A DNA stretch of 64,000 nt from NCBI RefSeq assembly GCF_012272815.1, contig NZ_JAAWWL010000001.1, positions 452,929 to 516,928 on the forward strand. Reading direction: 5' to 3'. This document shows positions 20,720 through 37,141 of this stretch, one piece after another. The DNA is from Croceivirga thetidis. GTDB lineage: Bacteria > Bacteroidota > Bacteroidia > Flavobacteriales > Flavobacteriaceae. The notes beneath the pieces are model-generated. The model was not told where the DNA came from. It made no database searches and saw nothing but the letters and a program-made list of their open reading frames with translations. The stretch's first letter is position 1. The number at the start of each line of letters is the position of its first letter. Made by a program: the position numbers and the translations under genes.

Positions 20720-20995
20720 TTAACTGTTTACAATCAATTGGTCTTCGACCAGTTCGCTGGTTTCGTTATAGAAAAAGACCAACTTTCGATTGACTGCTTC
20801 TGCGTTCTTCTTTAGTCTAAAAAGCTCTCTTGCGACTTCTTTTGAAATTTCATCTACACGATTCAAATCAATCGAAACCTTAGCTCGAGTTTCATATAAA
20901 TGCATCAGATAACTACTTAGACTTCTAATATTACTTGTGGTCAAATTTCCTTTAAGGTGAATTATGTTATTCCTTTCGGTTATGTGCAGTGCCAT
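20720..20995 (-). CDS. Small STAS-domain protein
   Basis: 91 residues covering one STAS domain: strand IIHLKGNLT, helix IRSLSSYLMHLYE, strand VSIDLNRVDEIS, helix KEVARELFRLKKNAE, strand RKLVFFYNE. Ser51 aligns with the serine phosphorylated in SpoIIAA-type antagonists, although the usual DSSG is ISKE here. STAS proteins work by switchable binding to a kinase or phosphatase partner, and no partner-switch kinase is seen nearby. As first gene of the STAS-flippase-GT4 operon it may be a post-translational switch for polymer export. That role is inference. Confidence 0.75.
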   Translation of the reverse strand: MALHITERNNIIHLKGNLTTSNIRSLSSYLMHLYETRAKVSIDLNRVDEISKEVARELFRLKKNAEAVNRKLVFFYNETSELVEDQLIVNS

Positions 20996-21038: not shown

Positions 21039-21201
21039 CAAAACGTATTATCCTAAATATATTGTAATTATTTTCTTACTTTCGATGAATTGTCGTTTCA
21101 TACTTAGGTGACAACATAATCCGCAAGCTTCACAACTAATACTTGACTTATCTTAATAAAATGTAGGATTTTTCGTTCTTATTTAATCTTACAACGTACC
21201 C

Positions 21202-23298
21202 ATGATCAGAATAATTACCCCGCTGATTATTTTAAGTTTTAGCCTACTTACAGCCCAAGCCCCAATGGACAAAGGTTTCAATCACCTAGAAAAAGGTGAG
21301 TTTAAAGAAGCAAAAACCTTTTTTGAGAATTATTTAGCCACCAATCCTCCAAATAAAACAGCACAGCTTTGTTTTGGTCGTGCCCTTGGACTCAGTGGTG
21401 AACCCGAAAAAGCAACTGAACATTTTGAAAAAATGCTTGTGGAATACTCGGATGACTATGAAATATTGTCCAATCATGCCGAGTCCTTTTTATGGGCCAA
21501 AAATTTTAAAGGGGCTAAGCCACATTATATTACACTTGTAGAAAAGTTCCCGGATAAGTTTGGTGCCTTATTAGGGTTCGCAAATACACTTTCAAACCTG
21601 CAGGAATATGTAGATGCCTTAAAGTGGGTAAACCAAGCTATTGCTTTAGAACCTGATAATGAGGGTGCAAAAATTTCCAGGAAATACATCAAAATGGGGT
21701 ATGCCAATGAATTTGTGAAGAAAGAAGAATATAAGACCGCAGAAAATCTCCTTAAACAAATTTTCAATGATTTTCCAGAAGATAAAAACGTTCTTCAAAT
21801 TTTGGCGAATATCTATTTAATGACCAAAGAATTTGATAAAAAAATTGATGCCTACGAACGCATGGCAACCTCATTTAAAGATTCTATAGTTGCATTAAAC
21901 GGCATTGCACTTGCACACCACCTTGACGGTAAAAGCAAAAAAGCACTCCACTTTGCTGAATTGGCAAAAGCTAAAGTTGATACCCAACCTGGTCATGAAA
22001 TGACCAATGATACCTATAATAGATACGTACAGGCACTTATTTGGAACCATAAATACGTACCCGCCAAAAAGAAAATCGATAGCTTGGAAATCAAGCACCC
22101 GAATAGCAATTGGGTGCTATCACTTAGGTCAACTCTGGGCATGTATACCGCAGACTTTAAAACAAGCATCAAAAACTACAATTCAATCTTGGCCAATGAC
22201 AGCACATCTTTTGATGGCAACTTAGGAAAAGCAAATGCCTTGTTTGCCTCTGATGAATTAATTCCGGCATATGAAGGTGCGTTCCAAACCTTGCGCATTT
22301 TCGGACAACAACGAGACGCCATCGGATTCATTGAACGATTGAATATTCAAAATTCCCCTTCTGCAGAACAGTGGTTTCAATACACCTTCGACAATGGTGA
22401 CAACATTGCTTACGCAGCAACAACAACAATTAATGTGCCTTTTTCGCCAAGTTTAAAGTCTACGTTTAAATATCAATATAGAACATCTGAAAATGAGGTA
22501 ACCGTAAATCAGGCAAATTCGCATACCTTTTCAGGGGCCATGACCTTTAAAATAAGGCCCAAGGTCTATCTACAAGCTGAGGGGGGAGTGTTTTCAGCTC
22601 AATTTTTGGACACTACCTATTTGCAACCTACGCTCAACTTAAAATTACAAACCAAACCATTTCGGCTCAATAGCTTGGACCTATATTACATTCGTGAAAT
22701 GCAGGCCTTCAATGCTGAGTTGATAAAACGGGAAATCGTAATGAACAACTATGGCCTGACTTACAATTTAGGAACCAATTTCAATCTTGGTTGGTACACT
22801 CAATTGATTTATACCCCGCAAACCGATGGTAATACCCGAAACTTATTATTCACCTCTTTGTACTATAATCTTGCCAGAAAACCAGCTTTTAAAATTGGTC
22901 TGAACTTCTCATACATCACCTTTGCAGAACAGGTTCCGACCATATATTTTAGTCCGTCTATTTACCGAAATGCGGAATTCTTCTTTGACCTTCGAGGTAA
23001 TTTCTCTTCAAAAACAAAAGGATTTGTTAGTGCTGCCGGAGGTTTACAAAAAGTTGAAGACGACGATGAAACCCTTATTTATAGAGCGGAAACTGGTCTG
23101 ACACATGAATTCTCAAAACGTCTAAAATTGGATGTTTACGGAAAGTACAGCAATATTGCGTCAGCTATAGGCGCCGGATTTCAATTTACTGAATTCGGAT
23201 TAAAACTAAATTGGAACATCACTAAACAACCTTTATTCTTTAAGAGTATGTTCAGTGAAGAAATGAGTCTTTTAGAAACAACTGACGAAGAAGAATGA
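21202..23298 (+). CDS. TPR and outer-membrane beta-barrel protein, putative polysaccharide exporter
   Basis: 698 residues. A signal peptide (ending LLTAQA) precedes about ten TPR-like helical pairs (20-385; for example GFNHLEKGEFKEAKTFFENY and ALKWVNQAIALEPDN). From about residue 390 to the end the sequence becomes alternating amphipathic strands typical of a barrel (LKSTFKYQYRTSE, AMTFKIRPKVYLQAEGGVF, FGLKLNWNIT). This layout is shared by PgaA, BcsC and PelB, which carry polymer across the periplasm and outer membrane; sequence family not assigned. It is divergent from the STAS-flippase-GT4 operon and convergent with the glycosidase-SPOR gene. Confidence 0.72.
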   Translation: MIRIITPLIILSFSLLTAQAPMDKGFNHLEKGEFKEAKTFFENYLATNPPNKTAQLCFGRALGLSGEPEKATEHFEKMLVEYSDDYEILSNHAESFLWAKNFKGAKPHYITLVEKFPDKFGALLGFANTLSNLQEYVDALKWVNQAIALEPDNEGAKISRKYIKMGYANEFVKKEEYKTAENLLKQIFNDFPEDKNVLQILANIYLMTKEFDKKIDAYERMATSFKDSIVALNGIALAHHLDGKSKKALHFAELAKAKVDTQPGHEMTNDTYNRYVQALIWNHKYVPAKKKIDSLEIKHPNSNWVLSLRSTLGMYTADFKTSIKNYNSILANDSTSFDGNLGKANALFASDELIPAYEGAFQTLRIFGQQRDAIGFIERLNIQNSPSAEQWFQYTFDNGDNIAYAATTTINVPFSPSLKSTFKYQYRTSENEVTVNQANSHTFSGAMTFKIRPKVYLQAEGGVFSAQFLDTTYLQPTLNLKLQTKPFRLNSLDLYYIREMQAFNAELIKREIVMNNYGLTYNLGTNFNLGWYTQLIYTPQTDGNTRNLLFTSLYYNLARKPAFKIGLNFSYITFAEQVPTIYFSPSIYRNAEFFFDLRGNFSSKTKGFVSAAGGLQKVEDDDETLIYRAETGLTHEFSKRLKLDVYGKYSNIASAIGAGFQFTEFGLKLNWNITKQPLFFKSMFSEEMSLLETTDEEE

Positions 23299-23408: not shown

Positions 23409-25409
23409 TTACTTTCTTAGTAACCAGGCATCATCCACTCCGGAATTTTTAAGTAGCACTAAATTTTCTTTCGCATCTGCTTCAGTGCGGTAAGGACCGA
23501 ATACGACGTAGTACAAATTTTTTCGCCAATCAAAATAGCAATTGGCATTTAAGTTCAGCGAGCGAAAATGTGCTATTTGTTTTTTAGCATTATTTTGAAC
23601 GCCAAAAGCCCCGGAAACTAAATAATTACCTGAAGCCCAGCCTTGGTTACATTCTTCATTTTTGGTTTCAGGTGCCAATTTAGTCTGAACACTATTTTTC
23701 TCCGTTTCAAGAGCGACCACAATGGTATCTACCTCTTTTTCCTTACGCTCTGGATTGGAAGTAACCGGCGCAACATTTTCCAAGGTTTCATTATTTTCCA
23801 ATAGTCCATTCTCGAATTCATGATCCTCGAAGGGTACAAAATGTTGATTCGGTGATATTCCTAAATCTTTAAATACCTCCATAACCATTTTAGGATTACC
23901 ATCAACATCCAATAGACCCATATTCTTCTGAGGTAATGTTCGCCATGGAAAAATGCCAAAAATCTCTTTTGGAATATCTGGAAAATCATAAAGTGTCCAC
24001 GCTATAAAATGCTTTTCACCCTTTTCAATTTTATCCATTATTAATTGATAATGTTCTTTTTGCTCTTCTGGTGAATTACCCATGAAAGCCTTACCCCAAC
24101 TATGAATTCCGAACTCACCAACAACAAGTGGTTTATCAGTTTGTTCAGCCCAATTATCATAAGCTTTCTCAAAACCGTCCAAAGCTTCATAAAAGTGAAA
24201 AGTGAATATATCGGTACCACTTTTTTTCGCGAAATGGGGATGCGGATGCAACCACCCTATAGTGCTTAAATGATTTGGAGCATAATATTTCAGCCTTCGC
24301 AATGCAAAGTCCAACCATGAGGTAACCTGACCTTCTGAGTGAACCTGCATGTCTAAATCCGCTTCATTCTTTATATCCCAGGCCAAAATGGCTCTATGCT
24401 TATTTAGGGGTTTAACGACCCCTTTAAGGTGTTGCTCTGTTAGGGTCCAATTAATGATATCGTATTTACCGAAGAAATCAAATAAGGTAACGATTAGTTT
24501 TAAATTGTTCTTTTCAGCAAGGTCAAGGGTTCGCTTAAGTTGTTCAACCATTTTTACCTTAACTTCTTCTTTTCCGAATTCATTGTAGTTCACAAATATT
24601 CGAGCAGTATTGAAGCCCAAACTATCTATTTTTCTAAAGTCTTGGTTGATTATGGTATCATTAAACTTATTTCCGAACATGGCCCAAGGACTCTCTTTGG
24701 GGTAATAATTAACCCCTCTTATGTAAAACGGTTCGTCATTCAATAAAAGTTGCTTTCCCCGTCTTTGAACAAAACCATCTTTGGGTTCCTCACTAATTGT
24801 GATAGCTGAATCTTTCGAATTGCTTCGAACCATGTGGCGTATGCGCCAGAAGCCATCTTCAAGAAGCATGACAATTTTATAATCTGAAAATACCTCTTGC
24901 TGTCTTACCAATGAATCGTTTTGAAAAATACGATAGACTTCATGCACATTTTTATCATCAAAAGCAACGAGTTTACCGTCGGCCGAGAAGAAATTAATGT
25001 CAATATTATGGCTCAAGGTGGTGCCATGAATTTTAATATCGTTCTTTTTATTGAACTCGATTGTTCGAAATAAATTGACCCTTGAACTATCGGTATAAAA
25101 ATCAGCAATTCCTTTTGTGGTGTTCACCGACTGATTTAAATTTTTCACATACCAAGAATCGGTATAATCCCGCTGCACTTCGCCCTGATTCTTTTCAATA
25201 AAGTCACGACCAGGATTTTCTAAATTTTTCCAGTTAAAAACAGGTTTATAGTAATCATTGACCTTTAAGACCTTGGCCATCATTTGTTCACGATCAGCGC
25301 CTGATTTTACAAATGCAAGTAAACTTCCAATACCTCTTAGAATAAAGAAGTTCGCTATTACGAAAACCCCAAGGATAACAGCACGATAAAACAATCTACT
25401 CCTTTTCAT
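23409..25409 (-). CDS. Membrane-anchored glycoside hydrolase-like protein with SPOR domain
   Basis: 666 residues. One N-terminal membrane helix (about 8-32) is followed by a beta-rich domain of about 100-210. A clan GH-A TIM barrel runs from about 220 to 520: RGVNYYPKESPWAMFG, LIVTLFDFFGKYD, WDIKNEADLD with acid/base Glu349, FTFHFYEAL, VVGEFGIHS with nucleophile Glu432, and WTLYDFPDIP. A linker leads to a C-terminal SPOR domain (about 590-666; NYLVSGAFGVQNNA, YYVVFGPYRTEADAKENL). SPOR domains bind glycan strands lacking peptide stems, so the hydrolase is probably held at the cell wall. The start overlaps the end of the upstream gene by 14 bases. It is a paralogue of 17213-18199. Confidence 0.82.
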   Translation of the reverse strand: MKRSRLFYRAVILGVFVIANFFILRGIGSLLAFVKSGADREQMMAKVLKVNDYYKPVFNWKNLENPGRDFIEKNQGEVQRDYTDSWYVKNLNQSVNTTKGIADFYTDSSRVNLFRTIEFNKKNDIKIHGTTLSHNIDINFFSADGKLVAFDDKNVHEVYRIFQNDSLVRQQEVFSDYKIVMLLEDGFWRIRHMVRSNSKDSAITISEEPKDGFVQRRGKQLLLNDEPFYIRGVNYYPKESPWAMFGNKFNDTIINQDFRKIDSLGFNTARIFVNYNEFGKEEVKVKMVEQLKRTLDLAEKNNLKLIVTLFDFFGKYDIINWTLTEQHLKGVVKPLNKHRAILAWDIKNEADLDMQVHSEGQVTSWLDFALRRLKYYAPNHLSTIGWLHPHPHFAKKSGTDIFTFHFYEALDGFEKAYDNWAEQTDKPLVVGEFGIHSWGKAFMGNSPEEQKEHYQLIMDKIEKGEKHFIAWTLYDFPDIPKEIFGIFPWRTLPQKNMGLLDVDGNPKMVMEVFKDLGISPNQHFVPFEDHEFENGLLENNETLENVAPVTSNPERKEKEVDTIVVALETEKNSVQTKLAPETKNEECNQGWASGNYLVSGAFGVQNNAKKQIAHFRSLNLNANCYFDWRKNLYYVVFGPYRTEADAKENLVLLKNSGVDDAWLLRK

Positions 25410-26862
25410 CGCTTAGTGTTTTTTCAAATTGCTTGGTCAAACCAAGGGTTTCCAATGTCATTTTATATTCCCCAGAAGGGAAATAAAAGTCCCGAAGTAC
25501 AAATGTGGTCATGGCACCAACGGTGTACTGCGTTATTTCAGAGGTCTTACCATTATGCTGCAAGGTTAGGGTCACAGCTGTTCCGTTGGGCAACAATTGG
25601 CCCATATAACTTTTTATCGGCCCAACCTGTATTTCTCGATTCTCTTTGAAAAAAGTAAGAGGAAAATCATATGCAATCTGCTCAAAATCGATTTCTAGAC
25701 TATTACTTTCCGCCAGCCCTGGAATAAAGGCTTGAATTGTCCATGAATCTTCGGTATACGGATGTTGGATTTTTGCCGTTGCAATACCCTTAACGGTCTT
25801 AGCAAAAGCCGCTAATTGCTTACCGCTCTTAGTGACAATTTGGTAATGGACCATGGTTCCATTTTGGATTATATTACCGTATATATCTTCAATTATTGAA
25901 GTTTTGATGCTTACCACCTCATTACCATCGGCAAAATTGTGTTCCTTACTTTGTTCAATTGTAAAATCTTTGGGAGAGTATGGATAGATATCCGAAGTTT
26001 TCTCCTTAGTAGTGATTCCGTTATCGGTGTTCATCGAAACTGTAATTTTCCCAGTTTGATTGTAGGAATAAAACCTTCTAAACGATACAAAATCAAAAGT
26101 GTACTGTTCGTGGACTTTCTGTGTTTCCTTAAAATTTTCATGAACTTCAATACGGGTCTCGTCTGGCATCGGGTTATCATAGTCATCGACAGGTATGACC
26201 GTAAGCATACTAAAATCATTACCCCCTGCTAATATTATTCTGGGACCAAAATAGGATTCGATGTAATCAATATCCTTAGGTTCTGTAATCACCTTCAAGC
26301 TATCTTTAAGAATACTTTCCTCCCCATACATGAGATTGATTTCATAATCACCTATTTTCTCAGTAATCAGCTCCGGAGTATTGTATTCGATTATTCCATT
26401 TCTAACTGTCTCTCGAATAACAATTGAACCATAGCCTGATGAATACAAAATATTTATGGGAACATTTTCATAGCAGGGTAAGCTGTACTCAACTTGATGA
26501 GAATGACCGACCTGAACAGTTTTTTGAGAATTCGAAACTAGCTCACATTCAAACTTTTCATATACTCTTTGCGTATAAATTACCTTATCGGTTTCGTTTG
26601 ATTTTTTGATTACGATGAAAAGGAATAGCCCTAGGAACAATGTAGACAATGGACCAACAACCCTTGCAAAAGGACTTAACTTTCCATAGTCCTTGAATGG
26701 AAAGAGCAATAAACGTCGAATAACAAGCCAATTGACCCATAAAAATTTAAAGGGCCACATTAACCATGCCTTTCGGTAGGTCCGTTTTCTTCGTATTCGA
26801 ATCTCTTTTCGAATACGATTTAGCCATCTTATGCCATTATTTATGGATTCAGGTAATTGCAT
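25396..26862 (-). CDS. Single-pass membrane protein with periplasmic Ig-like domains
   Basis: 488 residues. The first ~60 are strongly basic and cytosolic (RIRKEIRIRRKRTYRKAW). One membrane helix follows at about 66-86 (VVGPLSTLFLGLFLFIVI). The rest is periplasmic and beta-rich, with repeats resembling bacterial Ig-like (Big-1/invasin) domains: VIPVDDYDNPMPDETRIEV and SIIEDIYGNIIQNGTMVHY. No catalytic motif is seen. It overlaps the upstream GT-C-like gene by one base (TAATG) and the downstream glycosidase-SPOR gene by 14 bases, so the three are surely co-translated. It may be a periplasmic scaffold. I do not recognise a named family. Confidence 0.7.
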   Translation of the reverse strand: MQLPESINNGIRWLNRIRKEIRIRRKRTYRKAWLMWPFKFLWVNWLVIRRLLLFPFKDYGKLSPFARVVGPLSTLFLGLFLFIVIKKSNETDKVIYTQRVYEKFECELVSNSQKTVQVGHSHQVEYSLPCYENVPINILYSSGYGSIVIRETVRNGIIEYNTPELITEKIGDYEINLMYGEESILKDSLKVITEPKDIDYIESYFGPRIILAGGNDFSMLTVIPVDDYDNPMPDETRIEVHENFKETQKVHEQYTFDFVSFRRFYSYNQTGKITVSMNTDNGITTKEKTSDIYPYSPKDFTIEQSKEHNFADGNEVVSIKTSIIEDIYGNIIQNGTMVHYQIVTKSGKQLAAFAKTVKGIATAKIQHPYTEDSWTIQAFIPGLAESNSLEIDFEQIAYDFPLTFFKENREIQVGPIKSYMGQLLPNGTAVTLTLQHNGKTSEITQYTVGAMTTFVLRDFYFPSGEYKMTLETLGLTKQFEKTLSDEKE

Positions 26863-29800
26863 TAATCTGGGGAACCTATGTAATTGTTGACTTCGATTTT
26901 AATCTTGGAATAAATGTCACCTTCTACCGGAATCAAATCTGAATACAAAAGGCCATCACGGCGATAATCCAAGTATTTTTGCTTTATATCATCGTTGGGT
27001 AAGCCATTTACAAAGAAATTCTCCTTCTCTTGAGGATAGGTAAAATGACAATCAAATTTTCTAAGCGTAAATTCGAAAGGACTCTTACGTTGTGGTCGTG
27101 TCGCCAACATCACGATTGAATCTTCAACCCACACCAATTCGTTATCATCATTGTAATAGGATACGATCAACTGCGGAATAGTAACATCAGAAATACCGTA
27201 ATTGTATAAATATCCGGTAACCTTATCACCTTCAATCTGTAAATCGTTAAGCGAGAGTTCTCGATACAAATCCTGACTTGTTTGGTTGGCCGAAGCTTGG
27301 AGATCGAAAACAGCAGGAACATCTTCCCATACCATAGGGGTGAATGTGTCGGGGTCAAATACCGGTGGCATACTGTCTTTAATTTTTTGCCATGCAACTG
27401 CTTCAAAATGAATTTTAAAAGCACTTACTTCTTTCGGCAGAAGTTTGTGCTTAATGGTGTTTTGTGCATTGTAAACCCCTATCTCTTTAAAATCTGCCGT
27501 ATAAACAGTTGATTTGATATCTAAATCAGCGGGCATATTATCAATATTCTGCACGCGTCCAATGATGTAAAACTGATTATCGTTTTCAATCATTTTCGCT
27601 TCCAGAATTTCAACTACTGGCTGCGGTACAATGTCTTCATGAAAGGTTTGTTGTGTGGTTACCCTTCGACGCCCATGATTCTTGTATTTTGGTTCACCTA
27701 TACTGAACAATTGATCATTGGGAATATCAACATCAAAGACCTCGGGTACGATATACCATTTGTTGTCTTTTCTCTTGTTCAATTCGTAAACTGTGGTATC
27801 CTTTACATAGGTCAAAGGGGTAATATACTCCGTGTAGACCCGAGCTTTTGCGTGATTTTCAGTTTGGTCAAAAATGTCAACTTCGACGCCATTCAATTTG
27901 CCATAAGAATTTAATAAACCATCACTAACCGAAGTTTCGAGCATAAATTGATCAAAGGTCTTACCATAGTCTGGATCATAATACGAATGGGCTTTACCAA
28001 AACGCTTAAAATCAAGATCATCGTGATAGGCCAGAATAACGTTTTCGGGAGAAATCTGTTCTTGGCTTTGAATGAAAAAGAGGTAAATCCCATAAAATAT
28101 CATACCAAGGGTAAATAAGAACCATCCTGCCATAATCTTTGCCAACAGTGGTCGGAACCCAGAAGTGACTACCTTGAACTTATCATATGGATTTGGTTCT
28201 ATTGTCTTCAATTTGAAAGCTGAAATGACAATAATCCTGATATTGACGAAAAGGGCAATCAAAACTGTTGATACGGGTATTGAACCCCACATAATTCGCT
28301 GCCAACGCGGATAGTCTTTGTAGGGTTTAATATCAGGAATGGGCTTAATACCCAATCGTTGCCAAACTGCGATCCCATTCGCCAATGGTTTTATTCGTTC
28401 CCAACCAGTGAAATAAAGTATGGGGTCATAAAACTTATCATTTGAAAAAATAAACTTGATATTGTATTTGTTCGGAACAGTTAAAAATTGCTGTAACGAA
28501 CCAAGCCCCTCCACACCAAGAAATTTGGCGTTTTCCAGACGCTCGACTGCCCTTGTTGTCAATTCGGGAAGCCTACGTGCGGAATGATAATTTCCATCTA
28601 TCTGAAGCGCATGGGTGTTTGCGGAAAGCCAGGCCATCTGGTCCCCAAAACCCAAGGTTAGGTAACGCCATTTGTAATGTTCATCTGCCGCCAAGAAATT
28701 AATAATTGGGAGCATGTTTATTTTCTGAGGCTGTAAGGGTTTAAAATAGCCGAGGTTTATAATTGAAATCGCATTAAAAATTATGAGGAAAGCAACAGTA
28801 CCGCCCATAGCCCTATGCACGACATTACCTAATTTATCTTGAATGAACTTTTTAAGGTCTGTATGGGCAAATCGATATAAAAATTCTCCATATATCGGCA
28901 ATGCCATAATTGAGCCCCAAAGTGTGAATCGGTCCAAGGTGAGGATATTGAAAGCATTCGAACCTAAAATCATTTCGGGTAATGGTGTTGTTCCCCCGGT
29001 TCCCAACAGAGACAACATCGCAAAAGACAAACCGAAAAAGATAAATCGTTTTGAGAAAAAACGATAAAACAAATACGGAAAAATAAACATCAGAAAGCCC
29101 CATGGAATAATAAAGAAAGCTAGACCTGATGAAGTAACTTCCAGAAAACTATCTCGAGAGCCATGAGGGATTGGAACCTGGGTAATAGGCTCGTTCATTG
29201 TTGTAATCCAGTATGGTAATATTAACCCGACTAGACACAATACCACAGAAAGGCCAAAGATTACGATTCTTGGCAAACACGGTTTAAGCGCTTCCATAAA
29301 ATGCTTTAGACGAACAGCTTTGAAACTACCCGCTATCTCAGAAGCATGATCCATAACCACGGTACCCATTAGAGGTGCTATAAAAAACACCATTCCAAAT
29401 AGTGGGGTCACATGATGAGAGGTAATCGTAAAAGCCATCATAGACATACATGCTATGTAAAACTTTAGTTTACCCGTCTTTATATACTTATAAACTTCAG
29501 GCATAGCATGCATGAGCATTGATACCCCAAATAGACTCGGTAGCTGCCCAAATACATGTAATGTTTCAATGAATGAAGAAGAGAACACCGCTATAAGCGC
29601 TGTAAAACCGGCAATATCTCGGTTGCCGGTCATCATTTTACCGTAACGATATGCTCCTGTGGTAAAAAGCGTAATGGCTACAAAACAACAGACAAAAAGT
29701 CCGAACTTTAAACCACCGATATATGAGAAAAGTCCAATAAGTTGGTGTACCAATGGTGGGTAGGTCATCACCGAAAAACCAGTATACCATCGAGGTTCCC

Positions 29801-29954
29801 ACGGATTCCACCAACTGTTGGCATAATGATCCGCAAAAAAAAGATGTATCAGGGCATCATAGGTTTTTTCAATCGTAAAGAATACGCCCGAACCATGAAA
29901 TATCAAAGCCAAAATAAGGGCAATGACCAAGTATTTGTTTGTCTTTATCCGCAT
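26862..29954 (-). CDS. Large GT-C-like polytopic membrane protein
   Basis: 1030 residues. About a dozen membrane helices lie within residues 1-640. The first loop has acidic and aromatic residues typical of GT-C enzymes (EKTYDALIHLFFADHY, NPWEPRWYTGFSVMTYPP), and TFTITSHH-like histidine pairs follow (TITSHHVTPLFG). A soluble insert (about 415-540) and a periplasmic tail (about 645-1030) with beta-rich segments follow. GT-C enzymes use polyprenyl-phosphate sugars and work on the outer face of the inner membrane, so this could elongate or decorate a polymer. The GT-C call rests on topology and loop motifs, and no exact family was recognised. First gene of a three-gene overlapping operon. Confidence 0.6.
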   Translation of the reverse strand: MRIKTNKYLVIALILALIFHGSGVFFTIEKTYDALIHLFFADHYANSWWNPWEPRWYTGFSVMTYPPLVHQLIGLFSYIGGLKFGLFVCCFVAITLFTTGAYRYGKMMTGNRDIAGFTALIAVFSSSFIETLHVFGQLPSLFGVSMLMHAMPEVYKYIKTGKLKFYIACMSMMAFTITSHHVTPLFGMVFFIAPLMGTVVMDHASEIAGSFKAVRLKHFMEALKPCLPRIVIFGLSVVLCLVGLILPYWITTMNEPITQVPIPHGSRDSFLEVTSSGLAFFIIPWGFLMFIFPYLFYRFFSKRFIFFGLSFAMLSLLGTGGTTPLPEMILGSNAFNILTLDRFTLWGSIMALPIYGEFLYRFAHTDLKKFIQDKLGNVVHRAMGGTVAFLIIFNAISIINLGYFKPLQPQKINMLPIINFLAADEHYKWRYLTLGFGDQMAWLSANTHALQIDGNYHSARRLPELTTRAVERLENAKFLGVEGLGSLQQFLTVPNKYNIKFIFSNDKFYDPILYFTGWERIKPLANGIAVWQRLGIKPIPDIKPYKDYPRWQRIMWGSIPVSTVLIALFVNIRIIVISAFKLKTIEPNPYDKFKVVTSGFRPLLAKIMAGWFLFTLGMIFYGIYLFFIQSQEQISPENVILAYHDDLDFKRFGKAHSYYDPDYGKTFDQFMLETSVSDGLLNSYGKLNGVEVDIFDQTENHAKARVYTEYITPLTYVKDTTVYELNKRKDNKWYIVPEVFDVDIPNDQLFSIGEPKYKNHGRRRVTTQQTFHEDIVPQPVVEILEAKMIENDNQFYIIGRVQNIDNMPADLDIKSTVYTADFKEIGVYNAQNTIKHKLLPKEVSAFKIHFEAVAWQKIKDSMPPVFDPDTFTPMVWEDVPAVFDLQASANQTSQDLYRELSLNDLQIEGDKVTGYLYNYGISDVTIPQLIVSYYNDDNELVWVEDSIVMLATRPQRKSPFEFTLRKFDCHFTYPQEKENFFVNGLPNDDIKQKYLDYRRDGLLYSDLIPVEGDIYSKIKIEVNNYIGSPD

Positions 29955-30343: not shown

Positions 30344-31060
30344 CTAAAGTAGATTTAAGCGTTCCATTAGCATTGGACGATTACTACGGCTAATTGGAAT
30401 TACTTTTCTACCAATCAACACACTGTTATCCTGAATGTCTATTATCTTATTGAAATTGATAATATAACTTCTATGGATTTGCATAAAAACAGGTTCTGGA
30501 AGCCTCTCCCTTATGCGTTTTAACGTCGTATGAACGTGATAATTCTCTGTAGCAGTGTATACGTTAATATAATCTCCATCAGCTTCAACATAATCTATCT
30601 CGTCAAATTGAAGATGTATCAGTCTTCTATCAATATTGATGTAAAGGCTGTTGACCCTATTTGATTGAGATTCACCTTCGTTTGAGTCTACAGAAATCTG
30701 ATCTAGTACAAACTGCTTTCTCACACGTTGAACGGCCTTATCAAATCGCTCTGGAGTAACGGGTTTCACCAGATAATCAACTATGTTATCGTAATCGTAT
30801 GATTCAGAGGCAAACTTTTTGTCAGAAGTGGTCAGTACTACTTTCTGATCCTCTTTTAAGGTTTTTAGAAGATCAAAACCTGAAAAGCTTTCCATATGTA
30901 GATCTAGAAATATTACGTCGACCTCATTATCATTCAAATATTTTAGAGCATCCACACAATTATCAAAACTAGATGTCATTTCTAAATTTGAAGTCTGGGA
31001 ACATAGTTGTTCCGTTATCATTCTTGAGGCCAATTCGTCGTCAATAACAATACAGTTCAT
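30344..31060 (-). CDS. LytTR-type response regulator
   Basis: 238 residues from ATG 31060; an upstream TTG would overlap the Hpt gene. The receiver domain has IDDE at 6-9 and phosphoacceptor Asp53 (VIFLDLHMESFSG), with KPVTPERFD closing it. The C-terminal LytTR DNA-binding domain (about 140-235) has DEIDYVEADGDYINVYT, FMQIHRSYIINF and PISRSNRPML. LytTR regulators bind DNA as dimers at paired sites and activate transcription. It is the last gene of the seven-gene signalling operon and starts one base after the Hpt stop, so it is the probable output of the relay. The adjacent polymer genes are the nearest candidate targets, which is inference. Confidence 0.92.
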   Translation of the reverse strand: MNCIVIDDELASRMITEQLCSQTSNLEMTSSFDNCVDALKYLNDNEVDVIFLDLHMESFSGFDLLKTLKEDQKVVLTTSDKKFASESYDYDNIVDYLVKPVTPERFDKAVQRVRKQFVLDQISVDSNEGESQSNRVNSLYINIDRRLIHLQFDEIDYVEADGDYINVYTATENYHVHTTLKRIRERLPEPVFMQIHRSYIINFNKIIDIQDNSVLIGRKVIPISRSNRPMLMERLNLL

Positions 31061-31061
31061 T

Positions 31062-31382
31062 TTACAGATCTTTAATAAATTGGTCAACTTCTTTTAGTAC
31101 TTCTAAAAATTGTTCGTGAAATCGGTCTGATTCCACTTTCAACTCTTCTTCATATTTAACGGCTAACTTGTAACCTTCTTGCATGCCGCAAACATTTAGC
31201 TTATGCTTTAGTTTGTGAACAATGCTAGCAGTCTGAGGAAAATCCCTCTCCTCGTATTTGTTGATATAATGTTGAAATTCGCCTGGGTATTCCTTTTTTA
31301 AGATCTCTATAAATTTTAAACGGAAGGTTTCGTCATTCCCGGCGACGGAGTCGATGTAGCTTGTGTTTGGTGTTTCCATCAT
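31062..31382 (-). CDS. Histidine phosphotransfer (Hpt) protein
   Basis: 106 residues, an alpha-helical Hpt domain. His56 in ASIVHKLKHKLNVCGM is the phosphorylated histidine, matching the HxLKG pattern with His in place of Gly. Hpt proteins carry phosphoryl groups between receiver domains. Its ATG overlaps the stop of the upstream kinase by one base (TAATG) and the LytTR regulator begins one base after it. It could pass phosphate between the two kinases and the three receiver proteins of this region (36550-36948, 30344-31060 and the REC-GT2 fusion). Confidence 0.85.
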   Translation of the reverse strand: MMETPNTSYIDSVAGNDETFRLKFIEILKKEYPGEFQHYINKYEERDFPQTASIVHKLKHKLNVCGMQEGYKLAVKYEEELKVESDRFHEQFLEVLKEVDQFIKDL

Positions 31383-32431
31383 TACTTCATGTTTATTGTA
31401 AAGAACACTGTGGTTCCTTTATTTTCTTTAGAAGATATCCAAATATCCCCTTGATAATAATTGATTATTTTTTTAACGAGTGCCAACCCAATACCTGTTG
31501 CACTGGAGTCCTGCCTTAATCGTTTAAACATATCAAAAATACTCTCTTGATGGTGTTGTGGGATTCCTATTCCGTTGTCACTAACACTGAACAATAGTTC
31601 ATCCTCCTTTTCTTTAAAATCAATTTCAACAATACCCATTTCTGTATCCTCAACAGCTCTAAGTGCGTTGGAAATTAGATTATCGAACAATTGCTCTATT
31701 CTAAATTTATTGATGAATAAAGTCGGCAATTTTGAACGTATTTTGACCTTGATGTGTTTTGGAATGGACTTTCGTGATACGATACTTTCAACCACCTTAT
31801 TGAAATCCAACTCTTCGTTTTTATCTTCAACATTATCGATTGTAGCATGTTTTAAAATCCCATCTATCAAACGGTCCATTTTACCCAAATTTTCAAAAAT
31901 GAGTTCAACATTTTCCTTGCTCTTATTTTTAAATTCATCATTCGAATCCTCGAATACCCAGCTAACCAATGAATGTACGTTGCGTATAGGTGACTTTAAA
32001 TCATGCGAAACCATATGCGCATAATTGTTTAGTGATTCATTGCGTTGTTCTAAATTCCGCAATAGTTTGTCCTTTTCAGAGGTTATTTCGATGATTTTAT
32101 TGGTCTGGTGCTTAATTCCTTCAACCAACTCGTTTTGATCGAATGCCCCGTTCTCCTCTTCGCCCTCACATTTGTCGGTTCTAAAAGAATACAAAGCATT
32201 GCTCAAAGCACCTAGAATTTCCCTTTGTTGCACAGTTTCTTTATTCAATCGCTTGTTCGCCTCAAAAAGTTCTTTTGAACTTAATGTGGTCGCACGTTGA
32301 ATCATCTTGACTTTTTCTTCAAGATTTTCGTAGGAATGACCTATGGCATCCCATAATTCTTGAAGCCCGGGTTCATTTTGTAAATGCTCGGGCAAGAATT
32401 TTCGCAACTGTCTTTTTAGCAGTGGGTGCAT
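31382..32431 (-). CDS. Soluble histidine kinase paired with the FIST protein
   Basis: 349 residues, no membrane helix. An N-terminal helical segment (RQLRKFLPEHL, SSKELFEANKRLN) leads by coiled coil to the dimerisation domain with the phosphorylated histidine in AHMVSHDLKSPIRNVHS. An HATPase_c domain follows (N box DNLISNALRAV, G1 SDNGIGIP, G2 TGIGLALVKKI). It has no sensor domain of its own. It starts directly after the FIST stop codon, so the FIST protein probably serves as its sensor subunit, as NosP does for its partner kinase in proteobacteria. Confidence 0.9.
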   Translation of the reverse strand: MHPLLKRQLRKFLPEHLQNEPGLQELWDAIGHSYENLEEKVKMIQRATTLSSKELFEANKRLNKETVQQREILGALSNALYSFRTDKCEGEEENGAFDQNELVEGIKHQTNKIIEITSEKDKLLRNLEQRNESLNNYAHMVSHDLKSPIRNVHSLVSWVFEDSNDEFKNKSKENVELIFENLGKMDRLIDGILKHATIDNVEDKNEELDFNKVVESIVSRKSIPKHIKVKIRSKLPTLFINKFRIEQLFDNLISNALRAVEDTEMGIVEIDFKEKEDELLFSVSDNGIGIPQHHQESIFDMFKRLRQDSSATGIGLALVKKIINYYQGDIWISSKENKGTTVFFTINMK

Positions 32432-33559
32432 CTATTCACTTAAAAGGGTCAATGTCATTGTTTGATTGTGCAATTGACAAGAATTACGGCCTGTAAAGGG
32501 AGCCATTTCACCATAGGAATAAAATCCTGCAATACTGGCTTGTTCCCCAACTGTATCCATTACCTCTTCAATTTCTTCTTCGGTACGCTGATCTAAAACC
32601 AACCTTCTACCCACACAGCTTATCAATAACGCCAATTCTGGCTTTTTAGTTCGCAATTCCATTGCTTTTAACGCTGCGTTTTGAGCTCCTTCTGCAATAT
32701 CATTTGTGGTTGACATCATTAATTGCACTGTTGAATTCAATGGAACATCGCCTGCTAAAATCATGGAATTTGTCTCCTCATCAATATTCAAAATAGTTCG
32801 AACCAAAGGTTCTGCATTTTCATTTTCTTGCACACTTAAAGGGTAAAGAAGGGCAGCTTCAGGTAAGTCTTTTGCTTTTTCACCCAAATATTTTTTATAA
32901 AGATCCAGTGCAGGCAATCCATCAATTTCATAAAGCACATTGCCGTCAGATTTGGTAATTGTTCTTTCTGGTCCAAAAGGGGTCCAGCCACCATCGTAGC
33001 CATAGGTAACTTCTAATGAATCCCCATAGAGGCCAATAGCTATTACCTCACCTTGTTTTGGATTATCGTTATAGGAGGCCAATGTTTTTTCAAATCGCGC
33101 ACCGTCTCCGCATAACCCTCCGGTAATAGAAAATTTGAATTCTACATCGGATTCCAAACCTTCAATAAGTTCACTTCCGTTGATAAGGCTTCCATCAGAC
33201 ACCACGAAAAGATGTCTTAAATTTTCCTTTTCCAAATTTTCAGAAATCTTAGCACCCAGCTCTTCAACATTTTCAAAGTCATTGATATTTTCACTTAGGA
33301 CCTCAAATGTGGTATGCTCAAACTCAATAGCCGTTACTGTAATTGATTTTTCAAATACATTGATTCCCAAGATTTCACCTGAGGTAGATCCAAATACCAA
33401 TTCTCCGTCAGGATAGAAGTTTTTGATTTCTTCATAAATGTTTTCTGATTCCAGAAGATGTCTATCTCCGAATACCAGTACCAAAGGCTTTTTTAGTGCA
33501 TTGACTTTTAAGTACTCCCAAGAGCCTTCCTCCGTTCTTTTAAGCTGCTCAATCTTCAT
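32432..33559 (-). CDS. FIST-domain sensor protein (NosP-type family)
   Basis: 375 residues with FIST_N (about 25-220; KPLVLVFGD, LVFGSTSGEI, SITGGLCGDGARF) and FIST_C (about 225-365; NMI-like LISCVGRRLVLDQRTEEEI, IAGFYSYGEMAPF, LHNQTMTLTLL). FIST proteins are small-ligand sensors. One branch, NosP, binds heme and senses nitric oxide and is usually encoded beside a histidine kinase. Which ligand this one binds cannot be told from sequence. Its position next to a sensor-less kinase and within two genes of an H-NOX gene makes the heme/NO option attractive. Confidence 0.88.
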   Translation of the reverse strand: MKIEQLKRTEEGSWEYLKVNALKKPLVLVFGDRHLLESENIYEEIKNFYPDGELVFGSTSGEILGINVFEKSITVTAIEFEHTTFEVLSENINDFENVEELGAKISENLEKENLRHLFVVSDGSLINGSELIEGLESDVEFKFSITGGLCGDGARFEKTLASYNDNPKQGEVIAIGLYGDSLEVTYGYDGGWTPFGPERTITKSDGNVLYEIDGLPALDLYKKYLGEKAKDLPEAALLYPLSVQENENAEPLVRTILNIDEETNSMILAGDVPLNSTVQLMMSTTNDIAEGAQNAALKAMELRTKKPELALLISCVGRRLVLDQRTEEEIEEVMDTVGEQASIAGFYSYGEMAPFTGRNSCQLHNQTMTLTLLSE

Positions 33560-33571
33560 TTTTTTCTTTAT

Positions 33572-35938
33572 TTATTCGACTTTTTTGATGATTGTAAAGT
33601 GAAAGGTGGTTCCTTGACCAATTTCACTTTCGAGCCAGACTTTACCTTTGTATCGTTCGATTATTTTTTTGACAATGGATAAACCTATACCGGTCGATCG
33701 TTCTTTATTGCCAATGGATTGAAATATTTTAAATATTTTTTCGTGGTATTCTTTAGGAATGCCAACACCATTATCAGCAATACTGAATTGCCAATGGGTT
33801 CCTAAATCTTTACAGCCCACCTCAACAACGCCTTCTTCTTTATCTATGTGAACCACCGCATTGCTCAAGAAATTCTGGAACAATTGATGCATCATTGTTG
33901 GGTCTGCTTTTATGGTGGGGAGTGTTTCCTTTGTTTTAATGGTTACATGATCAGGAATATAAATGATATCACTTATACCTGAGATTATCTCATTTACATC
34001 AACATCAACATTTTCCAAACTGTTACTATTGACCGTTGAATATTTTAAGATTCCCCCTATAAGATTATCCATGCCTTCAATCTTATCTTGTATCATTTTA
34101 AGATTGTACATGCCATTTTCATCTAACTTATCCTTATAGTCTTGACATAACCAATCGACAAGGGCACTAACACTTCTTAATGGTGATTTTAAATCGTGGG
34201 AGACGATATGGGCATATTCTTGTAGTCCTTTATTGCTCTCTTCCAGCTCTTTTACCAAAGATTCTTTCTGGAGTTCTAATTCTCTTTGGCGCGTTACATC
34301 TAAATGAACGCCGACTGAACCGATAACTTTACCTAAATCATCATAGGTTGGTCCACCACTAATCAACCAATATTTCTTTTCGTTATTCTGATTTGTAATT
34401 TGTATTTGGTACGAATCGGACTCAGACTTCTTTCGACGCTCTAGTTGGGATTGCACCAGACTCAAATTTTCATCATCCATGTTCATTAGCTCCAGAACAT
34501 CTTTGCCAATTAGTTCGGATTCATTAAGACCGATCATTTGACAATAGCGATTGTTAACCAGTAAAATCTTGCCATCGTTATCCACTTCTACCAAGCCAAG
34601 ATTCATGTTCGCAATAATATTGCTGTACTTTTCCTTTTGCTGCTCAATATTCCTTCTATAATTCTTTTGAATGGTAATATCGCTATAGGTCCAAAGATGC
34701 CCTATCGGTTCATCATCATTAAAGAGGGGAATGTAATCACGGGAAAAAACCCTGCCGTCATTTAACTCTAATTCATCGGCAATGACCACCCTTCTTTCAT
34801 GAATAGCTCTATCAATACCCAAGATAAATTGTTCTGGATCTTTGAATTTTTCCTTCCATTGGTGCAAGGTTGATTTACAATCCAATCCTTTTAATGCACC
34901 TAATTCGGGTGGTATTCCAAATAAATCTTTGAATTTTTGATTAGTCTTTAGCAATTTACGATTAACGTCTTCCAACAAGACACCTGATTGAAGGTTGCCA
35001 ATCATTGTGGTCATTCGAGATTCAGAGGCAGCCAACATGTCGGTAGCTTCTTTCTCACTGGTTATATCATCGACCATAACCACATTATATTCCACTTGAC
35101 CAAGATTGTTATAGACGTTGGTCAGTGAAGTCTTACCGTACAAAGAATCTCCATTTTTTTGATGGAATATTCGGGTTATCGTGATTTTATCCGAAGAGGA
35201 TTCCTCCATATCCAACAACGCTTGATACTGCGAAATGTCTTCGATGGTTGAAATATCTTCAAGCGACATATTCTTCAACTCAAACTCTTGATAATTGAGC
35301 ATATCGCAAAATGCTCGATTGGCCTTAATTATTTTGCCCTTTACAATTAGGATGATACCTAATGAAGAATTTTCAAAAATGAGGTCCAATTGTTGCTTTT
35401 GGCTTTCCATAAGCTTTTTGACCTCCATATCAGCAGTGATGTCCCTTATTACACCTTGCGCGGCAACCGGATTGCCATTCTTATTGTATATGAGACTGGC
35501 ATTGATATTAACGTATTTAAGACCGTATTTTTTTGTGAAGATTTGGGCATTGTAATTCTTTAAAATACCAACCTGTAATAATCTCTGAAATGACTCTGCG
35601 GTATATTCCAAATAATCCTTATGCACCAAATCTGAAAGGATTAAATCTTCCTTTTCATTGTCATACCCTAAAAACTCCTTGGCACTGGAGTTCATACTCA
35701 GCACCTTGGTGGTTAAGTCCATGACTACATATGGATCAACCAAATTTACAAAGGCCCCTTCAAGGCTTTTCCCTTCTTCACTGAGCAGTGATTCCAGTCG
35801 TCCGTTAGCCTCTTTAAGATGAAGCATGGCATCATAGAGTTCTTTTGACTTATTTTCTAAAAGTCGTTCTGCCTCTTTTCTAGCCTTACGTTCTCGTTGG
35901 AGTGCCCTTTCTAAAATATATGTAGTCTCTTTATCCAA
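33572..35938 (-). CDS. Multi-PAS soluble histidine kinase paired with H-NOX
   Basis: 788 residues. The N-terminal coiled coil (LERALQRERKARKEAERLL) is followed by four PAS-like domains (about 55-175, 180-300, 305-430, 435-560; for example NSSLGIILIVKGKI and IANMNLGLVEVDNDGKI). A dimerisation domain carries the phosphorylated histidine in AHIVSHDLKSPLRSVSA, and an HATPase_c domain has DNGVGIP and TGIGLSIVKKI. There is no membrane helix. The only start compatible with the coiled coil is TTG at 35936-35938, inside the last codons of the H-NOX gene, giving an 8-base overlap and tight coupling. It is the likely partner of H-NOX. Confidence 0.88.
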   Translation of the reverse strand: MDKETTYILERALQRERKARKEAERLLENKSKELYDAMLHLKEANGRLESLLSEEGKSLEGAFVNLVDPYVVMDLTTKVLSMNSSAKEFLGYDNEKEDLILSDLVHKDYLEYTAESFQRLLQVGILKNYNAQIFTKKYGLKYVNINASLIYNKNGNPVAAQGVIRDITADMEVKKLMESQKQQLDLIFENSSLGIILIVKGKIIKANRAFCDMLNYQEFELKNMSLEDISTIEDISQYQALLDMEESSSDKITITRIFHQKNGDSLYGKTSLTNVYNNLGQVEYNVVMVDDITSEKEATDMLAASESRMTTMIGNLQSGVLLEDVNRKLLKTNQKFKDLFGIPPELGALKGLDCKSTLHQWKEKFKDPEQFILGIDRAIHERRVVIADELELNDGRVFSRDYIPLFNDDEPIGHLWTYSDITIQKNYRRNIEQQKEKYSNIIANMNLGLVEVDNDGKILLVNNRYCQMIGLNESELIGKDVLELMNMDDENLSLVQSQLERRKKSESDSYQIQITNQNNEKKYWLISGGPTYDDLGKVIGSVGVHLDVTRQRELELQKESLVKELEESNKGLQEYAHIVSHDLKSPLRSVSALVDWLCQDYKDKLDENGMYNLKMIQDKIEGMDNLIGGILKYSTVNSNSLENVDVDVNEIISGISDIIYIPDHVTIKTKETLPTIKADPTMMHQLFQNFLSNAVVHIDKEEGVVEVGCKDLGTHWQFSIADNGVGIPKEYHEKIFKIFQSIGNKERSTGIGLSIVKKIIERYKGKVWLESEIGQGTTFHFTIIKKVE

Positions 35939-36473
35939 CCTGTTTTAGCGTAAATTCCACTTCTTTACCGTCTTCACGTAATAGCTTAAAATCGACATTG
36001 ACCTTTTGACCAAAATGCTCAAAGGTTTTTTCCATTAGGCCTTTTGCTAACATGTAGAGGCCTCTTGAAGAGGTGTAAACCAATCGCAATTGGGTGTCTG
36101 TTTGTTCAAGTATTTTAAAAGTTGGCAGCTCGGCATCAGGATACAACTTCTTAACATGTACATGTATATGGTCTTCAATAGAAGCTATCAAAGAAAGAGG
36201 TGAGCTATAGCTTGAGACAACTTCTGGATGGGTTTTTACCAAACTATCAAAAAGATAATGACCAAAATGGTGTAATAGGTCAGGAACAGGCACATCAATC
36301 TCTTGACTTAGTTCTGTAACCAAGGCTACCATTTCGTTGAAATCATAAGTACCCACAGTTGTATAAACTCCACCGGATGGTAAATCGGATTTTGTAATAA
36401 TTGAATCTACAGTTATCAAACCGTAGTTAGCTTCAACCATTTGAAGAAATTCATCGAATACAATTCCTTTCAT
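35931..36473 (-). CDS. H-NOX (heme nitric oxide/oxygen binding) protein
   Basis: 180 residues, the standard single-domain length. The proximal heme ligand is His104, seven residues before Tyr111-Pro112 in HIHVHVKKLYPDAELPTF, aligning with His105 of soluble guanylate cyclase beta-1. The heme-propionate motif YxSxR is intact (Tyr133, Ser135, Arg137 in YTSSRGLYMLAKG). H-NOX proteins bind NO at ferrous heme and modulate a neighbouring kinase or cyclase. This gene overlaps the following PAS kinase gene by 8 bases. Confidence 0.95.
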   Translation of the reverse strand: MKGIVFDEFLQMVEANYGLITVDSIITKSDLPSGGVYTTVGTYDFNEMVALVTELSQEIDVPVPDLLHHFGHYLFDSLVKTHPEVVSSYSSPLSLIASIEDHIHVHVKKLYPDAELPTFKILEQTDTQLRLVYTSSRGLYMLAKGLMEKTFEHFGQKVNVDFKLLREDGKEVEFTLKQVG

Positions 36474-36549
36474 ATTTCTAGTATTATAAATTAAATGTAG
36501 GAATTGCCTTTCTTGAAGTAAAAAAAATGTTGTGAAATGGGCGTTTTTG

Positions 36550-36948
36550 TTAGCCTTTAATCAATTCACTAACCTGCCAATAGTCAAAGACTTTTTTGAT
36601 TTTGGCTTCGTAATCTTCATATTTTAAAGGCTTTATGATGTAGCCTGCGATTCCTATTTCAAAACAGGTAAGTAAATCGGCCCTATTTTCAGATGTGGTC
36701 AGAATTATTGTCGGTAGGTATTTTAGCTTTTCGTCTTGTTTTAGAATCCCTAAAAATTCAATGCCGCTCATTCTCGGCATATTCAAATCTAGAAGGATAA
36801 TATCTGGTAAGTCTCCTCCATTCAGGATTTCTAAGGCCTCCTCGCCGTTTTTAGCTTCAATTATCTGGTGCTTCGATTCAAAATTAGAAATTGCCCGATG
36901 CAATTTCATGGTTTCGATCATATCATCTTCTATAAAAAGGACTTTCAT
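36550..36948 (-). CDS. Single-domain response regulator
   Basis: 132 residues from ATG 36948 (MKVLFIEDDMIET); a TTG eight codons upstream is a weaker option. It is a complete receiver domain: acidic pair EDD, phosphoacceptor Asp in IILLDLNMPRMSG, Thr-Thr in ILTTSEN and Lys in IIKPLKYEDY. There is no output domain, so it acts by protein contact or as a phosphate shuttle or sink. It is the first gene of the signalling cluster, 76 bases before the H-NOX gene. Confidence 0.9.
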   Translation of the reverse strand: MKVLFIEDDMIETMKLHRAISNFESKHQIIEAKNGEEALEILNGGDLPDIILLDLNMPRMSGIEFLGILKQDEKLKYLPTIILTTSENRADLLTCFEIGIAGYIIKPLKYEDYEAKIKKVFDYWQVSELIKG

Positions 36949-37141
36949 GACTGTGTTTGTAGTTTTATCCAAAATTCAGAATCTCTATCTTATTCACGTG
37001 TCGGGGGGCGGTGAAATGTTATTTTCTATAGATGAATTGTATTATTCCTCCGCTCAAAATAACTACTCAATTAACAGAGATATTGTAATTTTAAGATTTT
37101 TTTAACTTAAATTTTCCTACGAAGAATATAGTCCGAATAAA

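Follow-up and report, generated by a model that had tools for sequence, protein, structure and literature searches.

A seven-gene operon for a probable phosphorelay with H-NOX and FIST modules adjoins an exopolysaccharide cluster in Croceivirga thetidis

What does a bacterium control with an operon in which an H-NOX gene and a FIST gene, each beside a histidine kinase gene, appear to feed one phosphorelay? This question is raised by a locus of Croceivirga thetidis (Flavobacteriaceae; assembly GCF_012272815.1), which we analysed within a 64,000-nucleotide stretch of contig NZ_JAAWWL010000001.1 (positions 452,929 to 516,928), referred to as the window. Seven minus-strand genes lie there in the order stand-alone REC (36550..36948; Pfam Response_reg, 1e-20), H-NOX, the predicted heme sensor of nitric oxide (NO) (35931..36473; HNOB, 4.5e-38; best PDB match 6bde), a PAS histidine kinase that is the presumed H-NOX partner (33572..35938; TTG start; PAS, HisKA and HATPase_c but no REC), FIST (32432..33559; FIST_N, 1e-43; FIST_C, 6.4e-36), a 349-aa, apparently chimeric histidine kinase that is the putative FIST partner (31382..32431; HATPase_c, 1.8e-24; HisKA below cut-off), Hpt (31062..31382; a weak Pfam match, 0.0037), and a REC-LytTR response regulator, the predicted DNA-binding output (30344..31060; LytTR, 4e-21; Response_reg, 4e-16). 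Open reading frames and Pfam matches bear out the genes, order and strand given in the initial annotation, with Pfam backing six of the seven proteins and the Hpt match remaining sub-threshold. The five joins from H-NOX onward are exactly as it had described them: an 8-base overlap (H-NOX/PAS kinase), a 12-base gap (PAS kinase/FIST), abutting genes (FIST/kinase), a 1-base overlap (kinase/Hpt) and a 1-base gap (Hpt/LytTR). The 3.7 Mb window genome has a single H-NOX match and a single FIST match; the window lies on its contig C1.

We consider it probable, judging from sequence, that this operon encodes a His-Asp-His-Asp phosphorelay with several inputs, through which NO and a FIST ligand govern transcription of the neighbouring exopolysaccharide cluster without cyclic di-GMP (c-di-GMP). 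Binding of NO to H-NOX would tune the PAS kinase, and FIST would tune its own kinase on binding a further ligand, which may be heme/NO or some other small molecule. Both kinases would phosphorylate the stand-alone REC, the proposed phosphate carrier, from which phosphate would pass to Hpt and on to the LytTR regulator. Phosphorylated LytTR would then act at tandem sites with a 21-bp spacing before REC, as autoregulation, and, in most sampled relatives, before the STAS-flippase, GT4 and REC-GT2 genes, and NO would alter matrix production with no c-di-GMP step. In this scheme we infer NO binding, both kinase pairings, the direction of phosphate transfer and the occupancy of the sites by LytTR; the genes, motifs, sites, synteny and modularity described below are evident in the sequences.

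The proteins of the proposed relay retain the residues required of them. We used a survey set of 397 Flavobacteriaceae genomes, in which kinship and uneven sampling limit what counts can mean; the named loci are the best 80 of 156 found, and 71 of these 80 extend at least 7.5 kb downstream of H-NOX. REC residues D7, D8, D53, T84 and K105 are at least 97% kept (80 aligned rows), as is H56 of Hpt (72 rows), and the phospho-acceptor residues of REC, Hpt, LytTR and the FIST kinase are near-invariant (51-80 rows; the PAS kinase was left out). The full His-Asp-His-Asp set (kinase, REC, Hpt, REC) is thus present with its active residues, with the Hpt match at 17.9 bits, below the curated Pfam cut-off of 24.6, and the output regulator carries both a REC and a LytTR domain. 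Since neither operon kinase shows a receiver domain in Pfam, the stand-alone REC would be the needed middle step to Hpt. A locus from another family of the same class (L170) encodes an H-NOX and a 950-aa PAS/HisKA/HATPase/REC/Hpt fusion followed by a LytTR gene, a gene arrangement that supports the order kinase, REC, Hpt, LytTR. Separately, Croceivirga radicis and its kin (L066, L056, L182) carry an additional Hpt gene that begins about 380-390 bp beyond LytTR, and its product is closer to the window Hpt than is the Hpt in the operon position.

At the REC promoter, most loci carry a 15-bp unit, ACCATTCRYCKACAS, as a pair with a 21-bp spacing. LytTR sites are usually direct repeats two helical turns apart; the predicted sites are tandem direct repeats at about that distance at promoters, and they are weaker in the window and its congeners. 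A unit model was trained on 40 promoters without a spacing rule and used to score 40 others, which are kin of the training promoters and so not independent. Scores of at least 20 were found in 34 of the 40 held-out promoters and of at least 10 in 37, and 39 exceeded the 99th percentile of shuffles; the maximum score of shuffled promoters was -0.4. Only 21 bp stands out among the spacings from 10 to 33 tested, with a mean best score of 29.4 compared to 4.6 or less for all others. With a first model, 98 loci (1.6 Mb, partly overlapping) held 100 sites scoring at least 28 at 21 bp and none at spacings of 16, 18, 20, 22, 24 or 26; 68 of the 100 lie at the promoter of this operon, in 61 of the 80 named loci, which are promoters the model had seen. 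REC-adjacent sites are also found in L165 and L178-180 (on the opposite strand in L178), and a locus from another family (L172) has a site before REC and a weaker one before the following 867-aa gene. The candidate site of the window (37005..37040, minus strand) consists of one good and one weak 15-bp unit at the 21-bp spacing. Given these predicted sites, autoregulation by the LytTR protein is probable, with the weakest case in the genus of the window.

Other searches for regulatory sequence gave more limited results. A wider footprint, sought in 60 relatives, matched in 26, and of the ten matches with at most one mismatch six are promoters of H-NOX operons (by coordinates) while a seventh belongs to the H-NOX-less relay of genome G005. 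A sigma-70 promoter scan was uninformative, with 28 found compared to 25.5 expected in shuffles. A pattern scan of the window's own genome gave 12 sites against 5 in a reversed control, and most single matches therefore mean little. Two LytTR-type pattern matches in opposite orientations occur in that genome at C1:1235388-1235504 (L185), one of them about 113 bp before a CAP-family gene, behind which lies a paralogue. Within the operon, REC and H-NOX are separated by about 77 bp (36474..36549, minus strand), a spacer that contains the conserved block TTTCACAACA followed by TTCCTACNTTT. Its length is 70-87 bp in 74 of 79 loci, both blocks are present under loose matching in 73 of 79, and it has no Rfam match at the gathering threshold; the spacer may hold a second promoter, or an operator, that serves H-NOX on its own.

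What the relay might control beyond itself is suggested by the genes downstream. In the window an exopolysaccharide cluster adjoins the operon (14.9-30 kb), and we compared it with 20 kb downstream of the operon in each of 20 chosen genomes (12 with and 8 without FIST beside H-NOX; 400 kb in all). On the same strand as the operon follow p1030, a 1030-aa membrane-like protein with no Pfam family that serves as the cluster marker (26862..29954), the 488-aa cluster protein p488 (25396..26862) and a GH5-like protein with a SPOR domain (23409..25409), each with relatives in 14 of the 20 genomes. The minus-strand genes continue with a STAS-domain protein, identified by domain match, as the first gene of the exopolysaccharide operon (20720..20995), a Polysacc_synt_3 flippase (19460..20716; 15/20), a GT4-type Glycos_transf_1 glycosyltransferase (18211..19449; 15/20), a REC-GT2 fusion (15884..17080; Response_reg, 5.6e-27; Glycos_transf_2, 3.4e-21) and an RmlD-type sugar nucleotide reductase (14953..15831; 2/20, one of them a 21-bit match). 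On the plus strand are a TPR protein (21202..23298; 16/20) and, by domain match, a secreted GH5-like glycosidase (17213..18199). Relatives of the flippase and GT4 genes together lie downstream of the operon in 15 of the 20 genomes. Other polymer genes occur instead in L245 (sugar transferase, flippase and GT2, by Pfam) and L259 (by gene starts), surface-protein-like genes in L257 and L262, and only the TPR match in the 20 kb of L258, where p1030 is about 32 kb from H-NOX and outside the stretch.

The same tandem sites recur in these downstream regions. The held-out model found 20 tandem sites in the 20 regions, all intergenic, with none at other spacings from 14 to 28 and none in three shuffles. 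Eleven of the 20 sites lie before a STAS or STAS-like, flippase or REC-GT2 gene, two before a secreted protein of 819-867 aa, and seven before other genes or none. By reading of the first-model output at a cut-off of 22, a site precedes a cluster gene (GT4 included) in 13 of 15 cluster-bearing regions. Association of the cluster with H-NOX extends to the survey set: p1030 is found in 111 of 397 genomes (a few as fragments), 102 of which have H-NOX, compared to 44 of the 286 genomes without p1030 (Fisher p 7e-48, a value that ignores kinship), and the two genes are within 33 kb of each other in 85 of the 102 genomes with both. The cluster and the LytTR-type sites, which lie beyond the gene span of the initial annotation, likely give the function of the system. 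In addition, the sequence of the REC-GT2 fusion hints at direct phospho-control of a sugar transferase; long matches to it occur in most cluster-bearing regions sampled.

Several observations weigh against this assignment. The REC site of the window scores only 19.3 as a held-out promoter, and those of its congeners L181 and L182 are lower again at 12.5 and 12.9. No REC site is present in Croceivirga lutea (-9.6), which among named relatives is the closest to the window. The exopolysaccharide promoter of the window has only a half-site (21079..21093, minus strand), 83 bp before the STAS gene, with a unit score of 11.9, a degenerate second half and a pair score of -18.0. Because the nearest relatives of the window thus have weak sites or none, our confidence in the proposed relay is slightly lowered. 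The same site could also be used by other LytTR regulators of these genomes. Marker and H-NOX do not always coincide, with 9 of 111 marker genomes lacking H-NOX and 44 of 146 H-NOX genomes lacking the marker; in the congener G164 the two are on different contigs, and the congener G341 has no marker and a different sugar-polymer cluster follows. H-NOX is moreover dispensable in a few relatives, as relay genes are found without it in G005, G123 and G277. Denitrification as the source of NO was considered and rejected: the window genome gave no nosZ match, and genomes with nosZ are not enriched in H-NOX, which is present in 45 of 158 of them compared to 124 of about 342 genomes drawn (342 being an assumed total).

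Conservation of the operon, and the pattern of its variation, indicate which parts are fixed. The initial annotation had proposed a check of relatives for co-occurrence of H-NOX and FIST and for gene order; the operon recurs across Flavobacteriaceae, and its order is conserved between genera. H-NOX is present in 146 and FIST in 116 of the 397 genomes; among the matches listed (112 for FIST), 89 genomes have both genes, no more than 3.3 kb apart in 75 of them. The whole seven-gene order is found in 47 of the 71 loci, in several genera. Two more of the 71 have six genes, namely L106, which starts too close to H-NOX to include REC, and L104, which has no LytTR match and no tandem site at its REC promoter (score -20.9). 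Only FIST and its kinase are missing from another 21, and Croceivirga lutea, which belongs to the genus nearest to the window among named relatives by H-NOX identity and tree, keeps a 158-aa kinase remnant. FIST and its kinase are thus both present in 49 of 71 loci, both absent in 21 and reduced to a kinase remnant in one, and none of the 71 has FIST without the kinase. Where the cassette is absent, the end of the PAS kinase is -17 to +3 bp from Hpt, or 104 bp in L072. In a tree built from four other proteins of the operon (70 rows), at least 8 changes in the cassette are forced by starred branches and 13 is the fewest overall, compared to an average of 18.9 in shuffles, of which 2 of 500 were as low as 13.

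The sensors themselves can be exchanged or omitted. In one genus-level group, Flavobacterium-like to judge from its size, four loci (L165, L178-180) retain the genes for REC, FIST, kinase, Hpt and LytTR side by side, and a fifth, L177, has the same relay genes partly rearranged. The H-NOX of these five loci is only 20-26% identical to that of the window, while REC is 57-62% identical in the three compared, and L180 has a third, GAF-bearing kinase. Since G005, G123 and G277 keep relay genes without H-NOX (the G123 stretch stops short of the REC position), NO is not essential to the relay. FIST cassettes are found on a contig other than that of H-NOX in G320 and in G050, with a PAS-kinase-like gene ahead of the cassette in the latter. 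The core of the operon is REC, PAS kinase, Hpt and LytTR, and the sensors are plug-ins.

The first sensor is an H-NOX by sequence. It matches Pfam HNOB with 131.2 bits (cut-off 25.5), and its H104 aligns with position 104 of PDB 6bde, its best PDB match (E 1.2e-52). Kordia algicida, itself a flavobacterium, provides this closest solved H-NOX (6bdd/6bde). Position 104 is its proximal His104, in a report that names 6BDD (PMC7356049); in the available part of that work it is studied as a lone domain, whereas the H-NOX of the window sits in a relay operon. The claim of the initial annotation that the heme ligand His104 and the YxSxR motif are retained is confirmed by this alignment and by 81 rows in which H104, Y133 and R137 are at least 97% kept, the motif residues being Y133, S135 and R137. 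O2-binding H-NOX proteins carry a distal tyrosine at the position equivalent to 142. In the window this position, counted from YxSxR, is a conserved leucine, which fits an H-NOX of the NO type rather than the O2 type; the protein is a predicted NO sensor. In the loci examined for gene order, wherever both are seen, the genes of H-NOX and the PAS kinase overlap. Genome G008 has an H-NOX very similar by eye to that of Kordia algicida, together with the core operon and the exopolysaccharide cluster.

The second sensor is harder to assign. The protein has both FIST_N (149.9 bits) and FIST_C (123.8 bits) and abuts a kinase without a recognised sensor domain, the arrangement of a NosP. The NCBIfam NosP equivalog model, however, gives only 56.8 bits against a cut-off of 450, a value within the range of six other FIST proteins (50-90 bits), and we rejected the identification of FIST as NosP by curated model. 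The initial annotation had placed two NO-sensor families in one phosphorelay; one relay with two sensor-kinase inputs and a LytTR output is supported, and the assignment of FIST as NosP-type is not. No useful sequence relatives of FIST were found in the PDB by phmmer or profile. The best PDB folds for its AlphaFold model (pLDDT 86.8) are human FBXO22 entries, followed by weaker matches to cyclic amide hydrolases; since the fold is common to these proteins, it does not imply heme. Residues C361 and H364, near the C-terminus, are invariant in 35 rows and fall in the sole segment with pLDDT below 50 (residues 351-366), which in the model would suit a ligand loop and in itself shows no heme. How FIST domains bind ligands is little known according to the available part of a review (PMC8846402), and the literature accessible to us, in part as excerpts, gave no heme-ligand residue for NosP. 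We regard FIST as a possible second NO sensor at most.

The kinase beside FIST appears to be a chimera. Its core is 40% identical to that of the PAS kinase of the same operon, compared to 26-27% for four FIST-linked hybrid kinases. Its first 70 residues, on the other hand, are 36-38% identical to two of these four hybrids and match the third more weakly (E 3e-7), with no BLAST match to the fourth (L159; E 0.40); they also match the kinase after a FIST gene on an Azospirillum plasmid (E 2e-8), and gave no BLAST match to the kinases of L161 and L279. A profile of the N-terminus recognises 16 of 16 hybrid kinases adjoining FIST genes in L145-L159 (31-47 bits) and does not match the kinases of L161 and L162. 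On these identities, we take the FIST kinase for a duplicate of the catalytic core already used in the relay, fitted with an N-terminus that couples it to a sensor.

Other FIST systems came to light in the same survey. In L145-L159, 16 stand-alone FIST genes precede a hybrid kinase of 575-616 aa with a REC match (PAS was confirmed by Pfam in the one checked), which makes up a FIST system distinct from that of the operon. In L161, L162, G225, G261 and G368, three or four FIST genes stand in tandem, and in L161 and L162 the kinase that follows them has no clear FIST-kinase N-terminus; H-NOX is listed for none of the five genomes. L163 is a compact FIST/H-NOX system, with FIST, a divergent H-NOX and a 1156-aa HNOBA/PAS/HisKA/HATPase/REC protein with a sub-threshold Hpt match.

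Four other readings of the locus have to be weighed against a relay that joins NO and a FIST ligand to exopolysaccharide transcription. Two concern the signal. FIST might be a NosP-type heme protein, with both inputs reading NO, perhaps at different concentrations or redox states; the pair of FIST domains beside a kinase without a recognised sensor domain resembles NosP-NosK (PMC12570481, in the part available), and the invariant C361 and H364 could lie in a ligand loop, but a NosP score no better than that of other FIST proteins and a fold that does not imply heme make this idea rather unlikely. A little less likely again is that the PAS kinase is the main sensor of a relay that answers chiefly to something other than NO, with H-NOX and FIST as modifiers that can be left out. 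The relays that lack H-NOX, the swap for a distant H-NOX in five loci with a better-kept REC, a PAS kinase length that ranges from 530 to 896 aa in relatives and the GAF kinase added in L180 all speak for it, but H-NOX accompanies 102 of 111 marker genes and its gene overlaps that of the PAS kinase.

The remaining two concern the output. The neighbourhood of operon and cluster could be old synteny without control, with LytTR governing only its own operon and distant genes, which we consider improbable: the half-site in the window, the seven downstream sites before other genes or none, and the sites elsewhere in the genome, ahead of genes for the CAP-family protein, whose start is lipoprotein-like, and for a second protein of this sort, speak for it, but 11 of 20 downstream sites stand in front of a STAS or STAS-like, flippase or REC-GT2 gene, every one of the 20 is intergenic, and L259, with a different polymer cluster by gene starts, still has two sites. 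It is very unlikely that the relay's target is instead the REC-glycosyltransferase, with post-translational control in place of transcription as the main output, since the output is a LytTR regulator and matching sites are found both at the promoter of its operon and in front of the cluster, even though the fusion has a full REC match and long matches to it occur in most cluster-bearing regions sampled. We therefore retain, as probable, the relay acting through LytTR on the cluster.

The absence of c-di-GMP from this proposal is based on the genome itself. A search that was positive in 8 of 14 control genomes gave no GGDEF match in the window genome (EAL was not searched), and the c-di-GMP route of the proteobacterial H-NOX systems therefore seems unavailable. 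In Shewanella, the H-NOX and NosP systems reportedly converge. The H-NOX/HnoK and NosP/NahK systems of Shewanella, Legionella and others (PMC8846402, PMC11237717) link two NO sensor families through kinases to biofilm traits, but in the available parts of these sources their outputs are c-di-GMP enzymes. Closer in layout are the Vibrio relays NosP-VpsS-LuxU-LuxO and H-NOX-HqsK-LuxU (PMC6769237, PMC8738867), which similarly comprise a cytosolic NO sensor, a sensorless kinase, Hpt and a transcriptional regulator; as described in the available text, however, they use hybrid kinases, whereas the window operon has a stand-alone REC, two kinases and LytTR beside exopolysaccharide genes. A combined operon had been called undescribed in the initial annotation, which goes too far. 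Our searches of the open-licence literature turned up no report of such a relay in flavobacteria or of its connection to exopolysaccharide, but its elements are on record. Section 10 of a review (PMC8738867) lists FIST among the gene neighbours of H-NOX group 1, although that section says nothing of how such an operon would work, of LytTR or of exopolysaccharide, and Vibrio is known to have a relay of FIST, kinase and Hpt (PMC6769237).

The locus shows a relay gaining and losing whole sensor-kinase inputs, including a chimeric-looking kinase. We judge the chances about even that it is a sensor-exchangeable platform, in which H-NOX, FIST-kinase and GAF-kinase cassettes are plugged, swapped or lost around a fixed REC-kinase-Hpt-LytTR core and LytTR switches neighbouring sugar-polymer clusters directly. 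NO control of biofilms runs mostly through c-di-GMP in the literature available to us, and if this idea is true, the platform would be a c-di-GMP-free counterpart, with a new kinase in which a foreign N-terminus for sensor coupling had been grafted onto a duplicate of the relay's catalytic core. The locus offers a concrete candidate wiring from NO to matrix for a bacterium without a detected GGDEF protein, and because a probable DNA site and its target promoters can be named, NO-to-matrix control in marine flavobacteria becomes directly testable.

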